A DNA stretch of 64,000 nt, taken from positions 186,001 through 250,000 of the forward strand of contig CANQLI010000002.1 in assembly GCA_947624675.1 (NCBI GenBank), in the 5' to 3' direction. The notes below the pieces were generated by a model that worked only from the letters and a program-made list of their open reading frames with translations, had not been told where the DNA came from and did no database searches. The position numbers and the translations under genes were made by a program. The stretch comes from an uncultured Clostridia bacterium (GTDB lineage: Bacteria; Bacillota; Clostridia; Oscillospirales; Ruminococcaceae). Below, in pieces: positions 1 through 64,000 of the stretch; the stretch's first letter is position 1, and the number at the start of each line of letters is the position of its first letter.

Positions 1-618
1 ATCAAGATACTCTTTTCCCTCGACAATCCCCGACTCGATCGCCGCTATTATGTCGTTTATCGTAACGATTGAATAAACCTTTATTCCGAACTCCTCATAC
101 GCATTATCAACTGCGCTCTTTTCGCTGTCAAGTCCCTTTTCCATTCTGTCAACGGTGATGACCATTCCCGTGATATTGACATCAGCAGCTCCCTTTAGTT
201 TCGGAAGACTTTCTCTCAGCGCCTTTCCGCTTGTCATAACATCCTCAATTATAACGACCTTCTCGCCGTCGGTGAGGCTTTTTCCTACAAACATTCCGCC
301 CTCGCCGTGATCCTTTACTTCCTTTCTGTCAAAGGTGTAGTTCACTTCAATTCCGAACTTGTTATACAAAGCGACAGACGCCGATACAGCCAAGGGAATA
401 CCTTTGTACGCCGGACCGTAAAGGGTGTCGGCTTCGATACCGTTTTCCCTTATGCACTGAGCATAAAATTCTCCGAGCCTCGCAAGCTGTGCGCCGGTCT
501 TATAATTTCCCGTATTTATGAAGTACGGCGCTTTTCTTCCGCTTTTCAGTGTGAACTCACCGAATGTGAGCACTCCGCAGTCTACCATAAATTTGATGAA
601 TTCTTCTTTGTAGGTCAT
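1..618 (-). CDS. pyrE: Orotate phosphoribosyltransferase (3' end outside window)
   Basis: PyrE joins orotate to PRPP to give orotidine monophosphate in de novo pyrimidine synthesis, in the cytoplasm. The reverse-strand reading gives 206 residues and runs off the window. Visible family features are an N-terminal stretch TLKSGRKAPYFINTGNY, a central GPAYKGIPLA loop, and the PRPP-binding motif VVIIEDVMTSGKA. The family is usually 205-230 residues, so little is missing. The start ATG (616-618) follows a GGAGG ribosome site (about 626-630). The gene leads an apparent reverse-strand run with the amidohydrolase upstream of it. The assignment is firm; only the last residues are unseen. Confidence 0.93.
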   Translation of the reverse strand, partial: MTYKEEFIKFMVDCGVLTFGEFTLKSGRKAPYFINTGNYKTGAQLARLGEFYAQCIRENGIEADTLYGPAYKGIPLAVSASVALYNKFGIEVNYTFDRKEVKDHGEGGMFVGKSLTDGEKVVIIEDVMTSGKALRESLPKLKGAADVNITGMVITVDRMEKGLDSEKSAVDNAYEEFGIKVYSIVTINDIIAAIESGIVEGKEYLD

Positions 619-9557: not shown

Positions 9558-9700
9558 GCTTGTTAAAATGAAGTTTCTAAGCTCATCATACAGCAAAGAT
9601 TGACCACTTCTTAACCGAAGTCAAAGCCATACGGACAGCTAGGTCAAATGCCGGCACGGCAACTTCTGTTGCCTTATTGATTGGACTTTTCAGTCAAATT
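9558..9700 (+). ncRNA. Structured leader RNA, riboswitch-like, upstream of speD
   Basis: The leader contains several hairpins I can pair by hand. TTGACC (9600-9605) pairs with GGTCAA (9642-9647) and encloses a 5-bp hairpin (9606-9610 with 9617-9621). Next come a perfect 6-bp stem with a TTCT loop (9658-9663 with 9668-9673) and a 7-of-8 stem (9680-9687 with 9692-9699) ahead of a T-rich run. The unpaired TCAAAGCC and GCCGGCACGGCAAC segments recall the core of GEMM-type (cyclic dinucleotide) aptamers, but the fit is incomplete: the P3 stem and the GNRA loop are missing. GTCAA recurs at 9693-9697 and could compete for TTGAC. I call it a structured leader without assigning a ligand. Confidence 0.45.
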
Positions 9701-55482: not shown

Positions 55483-56844
55483 ATGATTGCAGATATTTTG
55501 AGTTTTCTGTATGAATATGTATTGATAAACGGATGCTTTATGCTGACAGTAACACTGCCTTCATACGGAATTTTAGGGGCAAAGAAGGGTCGGTTTTTTA
55601 CTCCGGGAACAATAATATTTTATATTTCAGTTTGGATTGTGGCATACTTATTTTATGATATAGCAAGTACCGTTTCAGGCTTTGTTTCAATTATTGAGGG
55701 AATAGCAATAGCCCTTATCTATTCATTTATTTTCTGTAAAGGAAGCGCTTTTCAAAAATTGCTTATAAGCTTTTTAGCAAACTTAATTATGATACTGATA
55801 TCATACATAAGTATGTACACACAGACAATACTTTTCAGCGTACCTGTCGAAGAAATAATGGGAAACACGCCTACGCATTATATATCCTGTATTGTTGTAA
55901 ATGCAATATATATTTTAGCTGATTATCTGTTAATAAAGATAGTAAATAAAAAACATATCATCTCAAAAATAAAACGCACTGAACTTATAGCGATAGTTAT
56001 ATCGTTTATGATCTCTTCTATTACCTCAGCAATAGTTTTGTCGATTTTCTACAGGTACAGCGAACAGTTTACTTTCGCTGTAAAGGTGTATCTTATAGCG
56101 TGTCTGGTTGCGCTTATACTTTTCAACATTTTGCTTTATTATTTTATATACAGAATAAGCAAGCAAAACCGTATTGAGAGTGAAAACGAAATGCTTAAGA
56201 TAGAAAACGAATACCGCGAGAAGCACTATGAAGAGATAAAGGTTCAGCACGAACAGATAAGAAAGCTTCGGCACGACTCAAAATCGAGCCTTTCTGTATT
56301 GCGCTCACTTATCATCAGCGGAAAAACAGACAAAGCGATAGAATTCATAGATAAAAGTGCTGAGGAAATAGGAAAGATAAACACCTTTATAAAAACGAAC
56401 AACGATATAGTAAACGCCGTAGTAAATACAAAGCTCAGCGCAGCACAGGCAGCCGGCATAAAAGTAACAGCACTTTCAGTATCAGATTTCGGAGATATAG
56501 ACAGTTATGACTTGTGTCATCTTATAGGAAATCTTTTGGACAACGCAGTTTGTGCAGCAAAGCAAAGCGATGAAAAGGAGCTGAGCTTTAAAGCAATACA
56601 AAGCGAAAGTCGGCTGACAATTCACATTTCAAATTCTATTGATAATTCGGTCACAAAAAGCAATCCCGAGCTTTTGACAACGAAAAGCGATAAGCTTTCA
56701 CACGGCTTAGGACTTAAAATAGTCAAAGATATAGCTGACAAATACAATGCGTCAACAGACTTTTACGAGAAAGACAACGAATTTAATTTTATTATCAGTT
56801 TTGTTTTTATACCGACCCCCCCCCCGACAAACATCAAAACATAA
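55483..56844 (+). CDS. GHKL sensor histidine kinase (AgrC type)
   Basis: A 453-residue membrane kinase. The N-terminal ~225 residues hold six or seven membrane segments. The coupling helix leads to the phosphoryl site in IRKLRHDSKSSL (His about 264), then the ATPase domain with NLLDNAVCAA (N box) and HGLGLKIVKDIADKY (G box). It partners the LytTR regulator. The last residues (IPTPPPTNIKT) are encoded by a run of ten C bases (56816-56825); loss or gain of a C would extend the C-terminus into other frames. Confidence 0.92.
   Translation: MIADILSFLYEYVLINGCFMLTVTLPSYGILGAKKGRFFTPGTIIFYISVWIVAYLFYDIASTVSGFVSIIEGIAIALIYSFIFCKGSAFQKLLISFLANLIMILISYISMYTQTILFSVPVEEIMGNTPTHYISCIVVNAIYILADYLLIKIVNKKHIISKIKRTELIAIVISFMISSITSAIVLSIFYRYSEQFTFAVKVYLIACLVALILFNILLYYFIYRISKQNRIESENEMLKIENEYREKHYEEIKVQHEQIRKLRHDSKSSLSVLRSLIISGKTDKAIEFIDKSAEEIGKINTFIKTNNDIVNAVVNTKLSAAQAAGIKVTALSVSDFGDIDSYDLCHLIGNLLDNAVCAAKQSDEKELSFKAIQSESRLTIHISNSIDNSVTKSNPELLTTKSDKLSHGLGLKIVKDIADKYNASTDFYEKDNEFNFIISFVFIPTPPPTNIKT
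56816..56825. repeat. Poly-C tract (10 C) inside kinase gene
   Basis: Ten consecutive C bases in a low-GC genome, in the last codons of the kinase gene. A second tract of nine C lies at 63427-63435. Such tracts slip during replication. Confidence 0.9.
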
Positions 56845-61023: not shown

Positions 61024-63231
61024 CTATGCCTTAACGCCCTTGGCTTTTGCGTTGACAGCTCCAACATCGGTCGTAGTCACCTTACCGTCTTTCGATAGGT
61101 CAGCTACCTCAATATCATAGCCTTCAAGCGCTTTTATTCCCTTTGCGTGTGAGTTTGCAAGTCCTACATCCGCCGTTGTTATCCTTCCATCGCCGTTTAT
61201 GTCGCCGATAATATGTATCTCAGCGTCCAGCGTTGCAACACCGTCTGATACGGTTACCTCATAGCTTCTCGGTGCGCAGTTTTCTGCTGTTACGCCTATT
61301 ACATACTCTCCGTCCTCGAGGTCTGATACGGTATTGTTTATGCCTGTTGATTCGTAGATAACTTCACCGTCTGCGCTTGTTACAGTTACAGTAACCTCAG
61401 TGTCAACACCCGGAGCTTTAACAGCTATATTTATTTCGCCGTTAGCAATAAGCTTTAGCGCCGCAACAGCGTCGCCTATCGCCTTAGCGGCATTATCCGC
61501 CGCCTCCTGAGAAGCATAAATATCATCTACAACAGCCCTTGCCGCTTCAATGGCTTTATTCAAAGCTTCGACCGATTCGTCGGTATACATACTAGTATCA
61601 ATTTCCTCTGCCGACTTTACTGCTTCCTCTAATGCGGTTGTGTTTGCGATATACACAACATTTGTATCTGTAAGATACCCTGCGTCTCTAAGCGTTTTTT
61701 CTGTTGTGCTGTCCTTGTAGATATAAAATGTAGGGTCATTTGAAAGGTCAAAGCAGAATCCTTCTTGTACGCCTGCTCCATTGACATATATTTTGCTTAT
61801 ATATTCGAGATTGTCACAGTCTATTATTATTTCCTTAAGAGAAGGGCAATAGCTAAACAGGGAATCCCCGATGCCGTTTTCATGTATAAGCTCATACTGG
61901 GTATAGTGGACATCTCCCACGCCCTTAATAATCACCTTTTTTAAATTTGCACAACTTCCAAAAGCTGTATTTGAACGGGGAGCATTGTCTGTGGGTGTTT
62001 GAATATACACCATACTTGGTATTACTACCTCCTCCAGAAAATCACAACGCTTAAAAGAAGCCCCGCCTAATACCATTCCTTCAACTAAGTTTACAGAAGT
62101 AATGTTTGTATTTTCAAATGCAAAACTACGTAGTATACTTAATGTAGATGGCAAAATCAAATCGCCCGATAAAGCCGAATTACGAAATGCTGCTTCTCCA
62201 ATTATCTTTATTTTTACAGGCAACCCATTGACAAGTTTCTTTAAGGAAGTACAATTCTGAAAACTGCCTCCCCCTATGTATTCCAGCGTATCCGGCAAAT
62301 CCACATCCTCTAATTTTGTAAAACTGCAAAACGCTCCGGATGGGCATGATACCCCTAATGAATATCCTGTTATAACATCAACACTGGTAATCCCGGATTC
62401 AATTACGATGTGTTCTGCTTTTTCCTTGTACTTTTCATAATAACCGTCAGAAATGGATATAGTTCCTTTACCACTGAATGTCAGGGTTTTATTTTTTTCG
62501 TTCCATTCCCATCTTGATAATAATCCGCTTATGCCGGAGGTTTCTGTAGTCTTAGGCATCTCTAGCTTATCGTAAGCATACATTTTTATTTCGGAAAAAG
62601 GCTGCTTTTCTGTAATATACTCTATATCATCATCTGTTAACAAAAGTTCATCCCTTAAGGTTTGTTCAGTTGTGCTGCCTTTGTAAATATGCCACTTTGT
62701 TCCTCTTCCGGCACGAGGATAATCATTTTTACTCAAATATGATAAGCCACCTTTTGTGCCTCCCACGTCCTCCACTATGTCCGTAGCATATATCCAAATG
62801 TCTTTTATGTTACTCTCCATGCCATAAAAACAGGTATACAGGTTTTTTACCGTAGGAGAAAGCACTGCTTCCTTGACATTAATACAATCATTAAATGCCG
62901 CATCAGAAGAATTAGGATGACCTACAATGCCTTTTCCTAAATCCTCAATACCTTCTTCAATTACGATTCTTTGTATATCTGCTCCAAGCTTCCGCCATGG
63001 CCAGGTTTTTTGACTACCATTCTCATCTATTTCCCGACTGAGAGCACCTTTTCCGGTTATAACCAGTGTGGCGTCTGTATTTATGAACCACTCTGCCTCA
63101 TCTCCACAGGTTCCTGATGTTGCGTAATCCTCATCTGCGGCACTAACGACCGACACACTCATAGCGCCTGTAAGCACAGTTACCGCCATTGCCGCAGATG
63201 TTAGTAGTGTTAAAATTCTCTTTGGTTTCAT
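61024..63231 (-). CDS. LRR (BspA-type)-dockerin surface protein
   Basis: A 735-residue secreted protein: signal peptide (about 1-32), BspA-like LRR region (about 35-525, with CGDEAEWFINTDATLVITGKG and a second WEWNEKNKTLTFSGKGTISI block), one FIVAR-like unit (about 545-605), a regulatory-like beta module (about 610-675) and a type I dockerin (GDINGDGRITTADVGLANSH, then DLSKDGKVTTTDVGAVNA). The last ~130 residues are close to those of the 1505-residue protein, so both should dock to the same cohesins. I use the ATG at 63231 (AAGGAGG 9 bases upstream) rather than an ATG overlapping that site. Its promoter seems to contain a poly-C tract. Confidence 0.9.
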   Translation of the reverse strand: MKPKRILTLLTSAAMAVTVLTGAMSVSVVSAADEDYATSGTCGDEAEWFINTDATLVITGKGALSREIDENGSQKTWPWRKLGADIQRIVIEEGIEDLGKGIVGHPNSSDAAFNDCINVKEAVLSPTVKNLYTCFYGMESNIKDIWIYATDIVEDVGGTKGGLSYLSKNDYPRAGRGTKWHIYKGSTTEQTLRDELLLTDDDIEYITEKQPFSEIKMYAYDKLEMPKTTETSGISGLLSRWEWNEKNKTLTFSGKGTISISDGYYEKYKEKAEHIVIESGITSVDVITGYSLGVSCPSGAFCSFTKLEDVDLPDTLEYIGGGSFQNCTSLKKLVNGLPVKIKIIGEAAFRNSALSGDLILPSTLSILRSFAFENTNITSVNLVEGMVLGGASFKRCDFLEEVVIPSMVYIQTPTDNAPRSNTAFGSCANLKKVIIKGVGDVHYTQYELIHENGIGDSLFSYCPSLKEIIIDCDNLEYISKIYVNGAGVQEGFCFDLSNDPTFYIYKDSTTEKTLRDAGYLTDTNVVYIANTTALEEAVKSAEEIDTSMYTDESVEALNKAIEAARAVVDDIYASQEAADNAAKAIGDAVAALKLIANGEINIAVKAPGVDTEVTVTVTSADGEVIYESTGINNTVSDLEDGEYVIGVTAENCAPRSYEVTVSDGVATLDAEIHIIGDINGDGRITTADVGLANSHAKGIKALEGYDIEVADLSKDGKVTTTDVGAVNAKAKGVKA

Positions 63232-63323
63232 TTGGTACATCCTCCTTAATAATGTTAATTGTGCGTTTAGCTTCACATAAATAATTTAAAAACTACTACA
63301 TTATCACCTCCGAAAACACGAAA

Positions 63324-63356
63324 AGGCGCAGTACGCCAAAAAAGCATACTACGCCT
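63324..63356 (-). terminator. Leader hairpin upstream of dockerin gene
   Basis: A 10-bp stem with one mismatch (63324-63333 with 63347-63356), a T-rich loop, and TTTT after it on the minus strand. It lies between the likely promoter (63421-63450) and the gene, so it is either a partial terminator in the leader or an RNA-stabilising hairpin. The stretch 63457-63642 has nothing else I can name. Confidence 0.5.
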
Positions 63357-63420
63357 CTATTACGATATTAAAATATAATTGAGAATAATCTATTTGTGCA
63401 ATATCAACAAAGGTTAGGTA

Positions 63421-63450
63421 ATTATACCCCCCCCCGTGCTACAATTTTAA
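63421..63450 (-). promoter_or_regulatory. Candidate phase-variable promoter with poly-C spacer
   Basis: The minus strand reads TTAAAA (63445-63450), an 18-base spacer that contains nine G (63427-63435 as C on plus), then TATAAT (63421-63426). Adding or losing one G would shift spacing to 19 or 17 and change promoter strength. The downstream gene is the dockerin protein starting at 63231. Confidence 0.6.
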
Positions 63451-63642
63451 CAATCGGCGATTTGCACATAATAATTATCCTCCAGTAGGTAATATAACAA
63501 TTACTTAATTAAATAAAGTCACACAATACAAATTACAAAATCATATTAGCACATTTACACACAAATGTCAAGCAAAAAAATAAAATTTTGTCGAAAAAAC
63601 TCAAAAAGTTATTTCGTATTAACAAATGTTGAAATTCTAACC

Positions 63643-64000
63643 TTAAGAGACTTCAATAGTGTCGACAGTAAAGCTTCCGTTTAAAACTGTGATTTTAAGA
63701 GTATGCTTACCATCATCAAGCCCTGACAAAGTAAGCGGCGATTGCCTGAAATCGGTACTTGAAATCTTATAGCACTCACACAAAATTTTTCCGTCAAGCT
63801 CAATGAGTATATCTGCTTCTTTACCCTTACCGCTTACAATACTTATGCCGACCCCAATAAAAGAAAACTCTAAACTGTCATATTTGCTTTTAGAGACTGC
63901 AAAGGTGCGGTTCCTGTAAAAATACGATTCCCCTGCTCTTAATTCCCATAAGCCGCTGTAAACTATCTTATCTGACAGAGCGTCTGTTTTTTTTACAAAA
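63643..64000 (-). CDS. C-terminal end of a secreted/carbohydrate-active type protein (partial)
   Basis: The reverse strand gives 119 residues ending at a TAA (63643-63645), with the N-terminus outside the window. The visible part is one beta-sandwich: YSGLWELRAGESYFYRNRTF, FSFIGVGISIVSGKGKEADI, ILIELDGKILCECY, then LSGLDDGKHTLKITVLNGSF and VDTIEV. This order resembles the C-terminal galactose-binding-like or CBM-like domains attached to glycoside hydrolases and esterases. The catalytic part, if any, is not visible. Confidence 0.65.
   Translation of the reverse strand, partial: FVKKTDALSDKIVYSGLWELRAGESYFYRNRTFAVSKSKYDSLEFSFIGVGISIVSGKGKEADILIELDGKILCECYKISSTDFRQSPLTLSGLDDGKHTLKITVLNGSFTVDTIEVS

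Follow-up and report, generated by a model that had tools for sequence, protein, structure and literature searches.

What does a run of nine G do ahead of a gene for a dockerin-bearing protein? The question is raised near the end of a 64,000-nt stretch of DNA (the window) from an uncultured Clostridia bacterium of the Ruminococcaceae (GCA_947624675.1, contig CANQLI010000002.1, positions 186,001 to 250,000). On the minus strand, TTAAAA (63450-63445) is followed by an 18-nt spacer (63444-63427) that ends in the G9 tract (63427-63435) and by TATAAT (63426-63421). The original prediction, which had placed these elements correctly, took them for a promoter switched by changes in spacer length, as in the phase-variable promoter spacers of Neisseria porA and opc. 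The downstream gene (61024-63231, minus strand, start ATG at 63231) encodes a 735-aa LRR_5 (BspA-type) protein (E = 6.6e-23) with a signal-peptide-like start (by eye) and a C-terminal dockerin, an assignment already made from the sequence and borne out by a Dockerin_1 domain (E = 9.2e-7). Here, we argue, at a rough probability of 75%, that the tract acts as the switch in a transcription attenuator that is phase-variable and coupled to translation.

The G9 tract is above chance in the window (its two runs of at least nine G give three overlapping matches, whereas 100 shuffles average 0.09 and a single one of them reaches three). The TTAAAA/TATAAT pair is not clearly above chance: 63200-63700 holds 5 promoter-like sites, and shuffled sequence gives 2.5 (sd 1.4). 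The pair's 10 of 12 consensus bases are equalled by TTGACA-17-TAATAT on the minus strand and by a third site on the plus strand. Elsewhere in the window, a C10 run (plus strand, 56816-56825) falls within the final codons of an ORF for a GHKL histidine kinase (55483-56844), where a length change would alter the tail only.

The tract lies within a short leader open reading frame (ORF) on the minus strand, with the ribosome-binding site (RBS) GGAGG at 63479-63483 and ATG at 63469. With nine G, as assembled, the ORF (63422-63469) encodes MCKSPIVKIVARGGV, the G-run lying in codons 12 to 15 (CGG GGG GGG GTA, then TAA), and stops 63 nt before a predicted intrinsic terminator (63322-63358, 16 pairs, T-rich tail, z = −5.84) located between the leader ORF and the gene. 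Ten G would bring the stop to 55 nt before the terminator, and eight or 11 G would open the frame MCKSPIVKIVARGG(G)YNYLTFVDIAQIDYSQLYFNIVIEA (63349-63469), which ends on a UAG (63351-63349) in the terminator 5′ arm. The tract is enclosed by a predicted helix between UGUGCAA (63462-63468), at the start codon, and UUGCACA (63395-63401); a larger predicted hairpin pairs the RBS as well (−34.3 kcal/mol, z = −4.56). After the terminator, GGAGGTGAT (63305-63311) is found here and in L016, L065, and L168, with no obvious gene start (ATG-TAG at this locus), and may represent a further leader ORF or a standby site.

Runs of at least eight G number nine in the genome (2.08 Mb, 49 contigs), and three of them, this one included, share one layout, which is unrelated to promoter hexamers: RBS, ATG, about 30 nt, G-run, an element complementary to the start-codon region, and a hairpin with a T-run. 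In G002, a genome of the same genus that carries 14 leader copies, the leader precedes a 51%-identical homolog of the dockerin gene and has G11 and no TATAAT. A covariance model (R1) gave 80 matches at E up to 0.01, a count that includes weak and partial matches; among the elements inspected, six (L207, L208, L210-L213) are by eye terminator-like hairpins without a leader ORF. The matches fall in 12 of the 15 genomes of the genus, with up to 16 model matches per genome. Our analysis covers the retrieved model matches, those left out being mostly cut by contig ends: 76 matches, less two duplicates and one cut-off copy, gave 73 distinct elements, of which 58 were parsed and 15 were not (12 without a start or tract and three without a terminator found, namely, L182 and L186 at contig edges and L101, a script miss).

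Beyond the genus, two further genera carry the leader. The pattern ATGTRCA-N15..45-G8 matched four of 295 genomes of the order, with the leader in our genome and G161 (the other matches are G216 and G025). The covariance model, applied with stricter filters to 148 genomes of the family, matched five, two of them within the genus; of the remaining three, G161 and G172 have a tract-bearing leader (in G161 accompanied, by eye, by a tractless copy) and G110 has a terminator-like hairpin only. A scan of genome contigs gave 27 stretches (14 from bin37 and 13 others), and among the 13, L082 and L101 are leaders and the other 11 are chance-like by eye. Two contigs of G004 (C16 and C24, with L119 and L128) start with the nine G of a leader, and several others begin or end inside one, so assemblies lose copies there. 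On these sequences, the leader appears to be a cassette present in three genera of one family, before unrelated genes. It matched no Rfam family: at the gathering score, the window gave only SpF59, and at E up to 1, five loci (including the leaders L001, L008, and L016) gave no match overlapping the leader. The SpF59 match, a family described as a Streptococcus small RNA (sRNA), is at 9601-9654 (60.1 bits; gathering score, 37.2).

A candidate promoter (63543-63571, minus strand) is located about 110 nt upstream of the tract, with a perfect −35 (TTGACA, 63571-63566), a 17-nt spacer, and TAATAT (63548-63543) preceded by TG, and the same layout is found before the leaders of relatives. The pattern TTGAC-16..18-TWNNNT occurs upstream of 48 of 58 leaders (2.0 in shuffles; largest, 5) and is missing from the other 10, and a stricter pattern occurs upstream of 37 (0.3 in shuffles), counts from leaders that are related rather than independent. 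In G002, all 13 copies with upstream DNA examined have TTGACAC and then TATATTATA. Because a promoter-like site precedes the leaders, the tract is probably transcribed as part of the leader.

Across leaders, the length of the G-run sets where translation would end. In each of the first 22 leaders, exactly one of the three length classes reaches the terminator, and the stop lies at +8/+9 within it (GGGCG-UAG and variants) in 21 and at +69 in L016. In the larger set, 56 of the 58 parsed leaders reach the terminator in at least one class and 45 in exactly one; the two misses have only G4. For a shuffle test, leaders with a longest run of at least six G were used (54 kept, with the contig-cut L197 dropped, plus L101, L224, and L225 added by hand; entries of "G6" or "G7" in the frame table are interrupted runs, GGGAGGGGGG and GGGGGGGAG). 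All 57 have a frame reaching the terminator, as do 17 of 17 clusters, against 9.1 expected from dinucleotide shuffles (P = 1.3e-5); looser clustering weakens the excess (9 clusters against 4.8 expected, P = 2.0e-3; 8 against 4.3, P = 5.7e-3). The rule holds despite different terminators, since L224 (another genus, single-contig genome) ends at GCA-UAG inside its own hairpin and L225 (third genus) has its stop, a UGA, where the hairpin 5′ arm has its tip; it is also found in L082 and L101, from two bins titled Ruminococcus. Of seven degenerate copies examined, two have a frame that stays open into the hairpin (L190, which lacks a run, and L194, with four G), and five fall short of it (L203, L192, L209, L191, and L206).

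The peptide is another matter. A codon test of the long-frame peptide gave no sign of purifying selection (19 of 60 changes synonymous against 16.4 expected, P = 0.26), and third codon positions had no marked excess of change (22 of 60). A conserved signalling or arrest peptide, considered because long-frame peptides look alike across species, was thus rejected for want of a synonymous excess in the substitution test. The frame stays open while the peptide is not visibly kept, as a device that reads tract length predicts.

Tract length differs among paralogs and, with orthologs paired on just the first 70 residues encoded by the downstream gene, among orthologs of different species. L164 (G9) and L218 (G10) lie, in two species, before 270-aa proteins that are nearly identical, ABC exporters that begin almost identically follow G9 (L170 and L173) or G10 (L167 and L171), and leaders of LytTR genes have G11 (L181, L184, and L189) or G12 (L187). 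The 13 complete tracts of G002 comprise one G8, one G10, nine G11, and two G12. In L222 (301-474; contig C13 of G010), 26 consecutive G, far above other copies, are either a real expansion or an assembly error.

Two helices are retained alongside the frame: the start-codon helix, whose arms have changed on both sides in relatives, and the terminator, whose 12-pair core covaries. In the alignment of the 76 model matches (A3), 17 of their 19 pairs have changed on both sides, with 107 covarying cells, where shuffling gives 29.1 (none of 500 shuffles as high) and sliding gives no more than 40, in an alignment that was fitted to the structure and holds related sequences, which can exceed every shuffle. 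A free alignment of the first 22 leaders gave weaker covariation (3 pairs, 2.2 in shuffles, a count reached by 157 of 500; 10 cells, 5.2 in shuffles, a count reached by 6 of 500). The start-site hairpin is uneven (z = −5.28 to +0.80 across eight folded leaders, only L082 being above zero), and in L072 a hairpin at the start region is still predicted, with a 3′ arm that directly follows the G-run and is quite different. Read as DNA, the two arms are inverted repeats (TGTGCAA/TTGCACA) that might bound an invertible segment; since they form the arms of a covarying helix around the start codon, we provisionally set that idea aside.

The anatomy, the frame rule in all 57 analysable tract leaders, the helix covariation, and the tract-length differences across paralogs and orthologs are features of the sequences themselves, and from them we infer the following mechanism. 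RNA polymerase would start at the upstream promoter and produce a leader RNA with the RBS and short ORF. With the right G-run length modulo 3 (8 or 11 at this locus), a ribosome would cross the leader and end on the UAG in the terminator 5′ arm, the hairpin would not form, and the dockerin/LRR gene would be transcribed (ON). If the run had another length (the assembled 9, or 10), the ribosome would stop 63 or 55 nt early, the terminator would fold, and the gene would be mostly OFF. Slipped-strand changes in the G-run within a clone would switch the state. The start-codon hairpin would perhaps be a pause or timing device that admits only an early ribosome, which is a guess.

Translation into an attenuator that prevents termination, as proposed here, is also the principle of E. 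coli pyrBI and pyrE, which have no repeat switch and respond to UTP through polymerase pausing, unlike these leaders. A closer parallel is the pil1 pilus locus of Streptococcus gallolyticus, where phase variation by leader-length attenuation has been demonstrated experimentally. As described by Danne et al. (2014, PMC3894217), gain or loss of GCAGA repeats changes leader length, and termination is prevented, and transcription raised, by longer leaders whose end lies near, inside, or beyond the hairpin. Expression is low with a short leader, whose stop lies 39 or 49 nt ahead of the hairpin (the paper gives both values), and about two-thirds of cells are low. Mutated leader start signals lowered expression, and deletion of one hairpin strand raised pilB transcription 11-fold (PMC3894217). 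As in pil1 and pil3, a promoter here precedes a leader ORF with a slippage-prone repeat and an intrinsic terminator before a surface gene, a likeness read from sequence on our side: RBS and start codon lie downstream of the promoter, a simple repeat lies in the ORF, and the frame sets the stop before or in the terminator. The leaders differ in having a G homopolymer rather than a GCAGA pentamer (22 copies in pil1 and 13 in pil3, PMC3894217), in a predicted hairpin that holds the start codon, in a conserved stop position within the terminator, and in their targets, which are two pilus loci in that account and here LRR, LytTR, ABC, VTC, Cna_B, and acyltransferase genes. That the leader works like pil1 is, by this analogy, the best explanation, and common descent is not claimed. 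What would be new relative to pil1, judging by the leaders compared, is the G homopolymer, the start-site hairpin, the conserved stop position, the many targets, and the spread over three genera.

The alternative that fares best, although we consider it unlikely, is a tract of fixed length at which transcriptional slippage or ribosomal frameshifting would give each cell a constant, small share of the long frame and so a set basal level. The long frame was assembled in 13 of the 57 leaders, against 22.7 expected at random, and the short frame in 44; both states occur within 4 of the 17 clusters. The excess of short forms means either a bias toward OFF or a short form that is itself the functional one; it fits a mostly-OFF system as in S. 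gallolyticus and also a fixed tract with slippage read-through. The predominance of G11 in G002 also favours a fixed tract. Lengths that differ by one base among orthologs and by more among paralogs, together with the G26 copy, stand against it. A pure G-run alone cannot separate a fixed from a switching tract, and both may operate.

Control through promoter spacing, the mechanism originally proposed, is quite unlikely judging by the relatives. TTAAAA-18-TATAAT does exist and scores as high as the upstream site, and a G9 run between TTGACA and TATAAT is present elsewhere in the genome. Among 55 leaders with a longest run of at least six G, however, a perfect TATAAT right after the tract occurs in one, the dockerin leader itself, where it overlaps the end and stop codon of the leader ORF; one further leader has it with one mismatch, and both hexamers are acceptable only at the dockerin locus. 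What relatives keep instead is the RBS, the start codon, the two covarying helices, a frame open into the terminator, and the upstream promoter. Because the −10 is not kept in relatives while the upstream promoter is, the spacer reading was set aside as the main mechanism, and a G-run beside TATAAT is, as a caution, not necessarily a promoter spacer. Promoter spacing and attenuation could act together at this single locus, where TATAAT could add something. The tract shares poly-G, slippage, and a surface gene with porA and opc; it lies inside a leader ORF, not between hexamers kept by relatives. The broader part of the original prediction is supported by inference, in that a slippage-prone tract likely makes the dockerin gene phase-variable; the proposed route through −35/−10 spacing is not supported. 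The arrangement it had in mind is seen at L013 (1501-1509; contig C5, 3484-3492), where G9 lies between perfect TTGACA and TATAAT (spacer, 18) before an ABC-ATPase-like ORF (by eye), with a second TATAAT further downstream.

It is very improbable that the G-run is the target of a trans-acting C/U-rich sRNA or acts via RNA structure. There is a precedent for an sRNA that targets a variable G-run in an mRNA leader: Helicobacter pylori tlpB, whose G-repeat is acted on by the sRNA RepG (PMC8295292). The tlpB leader acts through an sRNA, unlike the leaders proposed here, and the opening of that abstract mentions neither a leader frame nor a terminator. Such a mechanism leaves a frame ending in the terminator unexplained, and the outer helix of the dockerin-locus hairpin is predicted alike with 6 to 13 G. 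Least probable is a trp-type glycine attenuator, in which stalling at GGG codons (the tract reads as two to four of them in most of the first 22 leaders) would control an antiterminator, since the minimum-energy fold of the dockerin leader (that fold alone) shows no competition between terminator and start-site hairpin, subfamilies have the run in different phases with respect to the start (RGG or NGGG), and targets include surface-type proteins, regulators, and transporters.

Returning to the phase-variable attenuator, its candidate targets are diverse. The target was taken as the first suitable ORF past the terminator, and a long gap (243 nt for L177) makes some assignments less sure. Among 16 downstream proteins scanned in addition to the dockerin protein, domains included LRR_5 with FIVAR or fn3 (L022, L214, and L217), LytTR response regulators (L221 and L181), an ABC transporter (L171), a VTC-domain protein (L177), acyltransferase_3 (L082), a Cna_B/isopeptide surface protein (L199), FIVAR with a carboxypeptidase-regulatory-like domain (L220), an RHS-repeat protein (L174), a zinc ribbon (L178), and DUF4230 (L101); L218, L193, and L201 had no domain match at E of 0.001. 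Many target proteins look secreted from their starts (by eye). Response-regulator genes lie downstream of L181, L184, L187, L189, and L221 (LytTR by Pfam in L181 and L221, the rest by look-alike starts), and one tract might flip a whole regulon via a LytTR regulator. Separately, a G10 run in L018 (184-193; genome contig C18) lies near the 3′ end of a sugar-nucleotide-epimerase-like ORF (by eye), a candidate phase-variable polysaccharide gene.

Keyword searches of open-access PubMed Central literature, judged mainly by titles and the openings of abstracts, listed no account of such a leader in gut Clostridia. More tentatively, and at somewhat less than even odds, we suggest that the leader is a portable RNA cassette in three genera of one family, in which G-homopolymer length would decide whether an early ribosome enters the terminator, with the start-site hairpin limiting the choice to that ribosome. 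With up to 16 per genome, some before LytTR regulators, such cassettes would together act as a contingency system that varies the coat of gut commensals combinatorially. The leader is conserved, can be searched for with a model, and precedes dozens of genes, many of surface type and some regulators, in uncultured gut Clostridia. If the proposal is true, coat heterogeneity in these commensals would be predictable from sequence, with ON or OFF given by tract length modulo 3, and could be checked in existing metagenomic reads.
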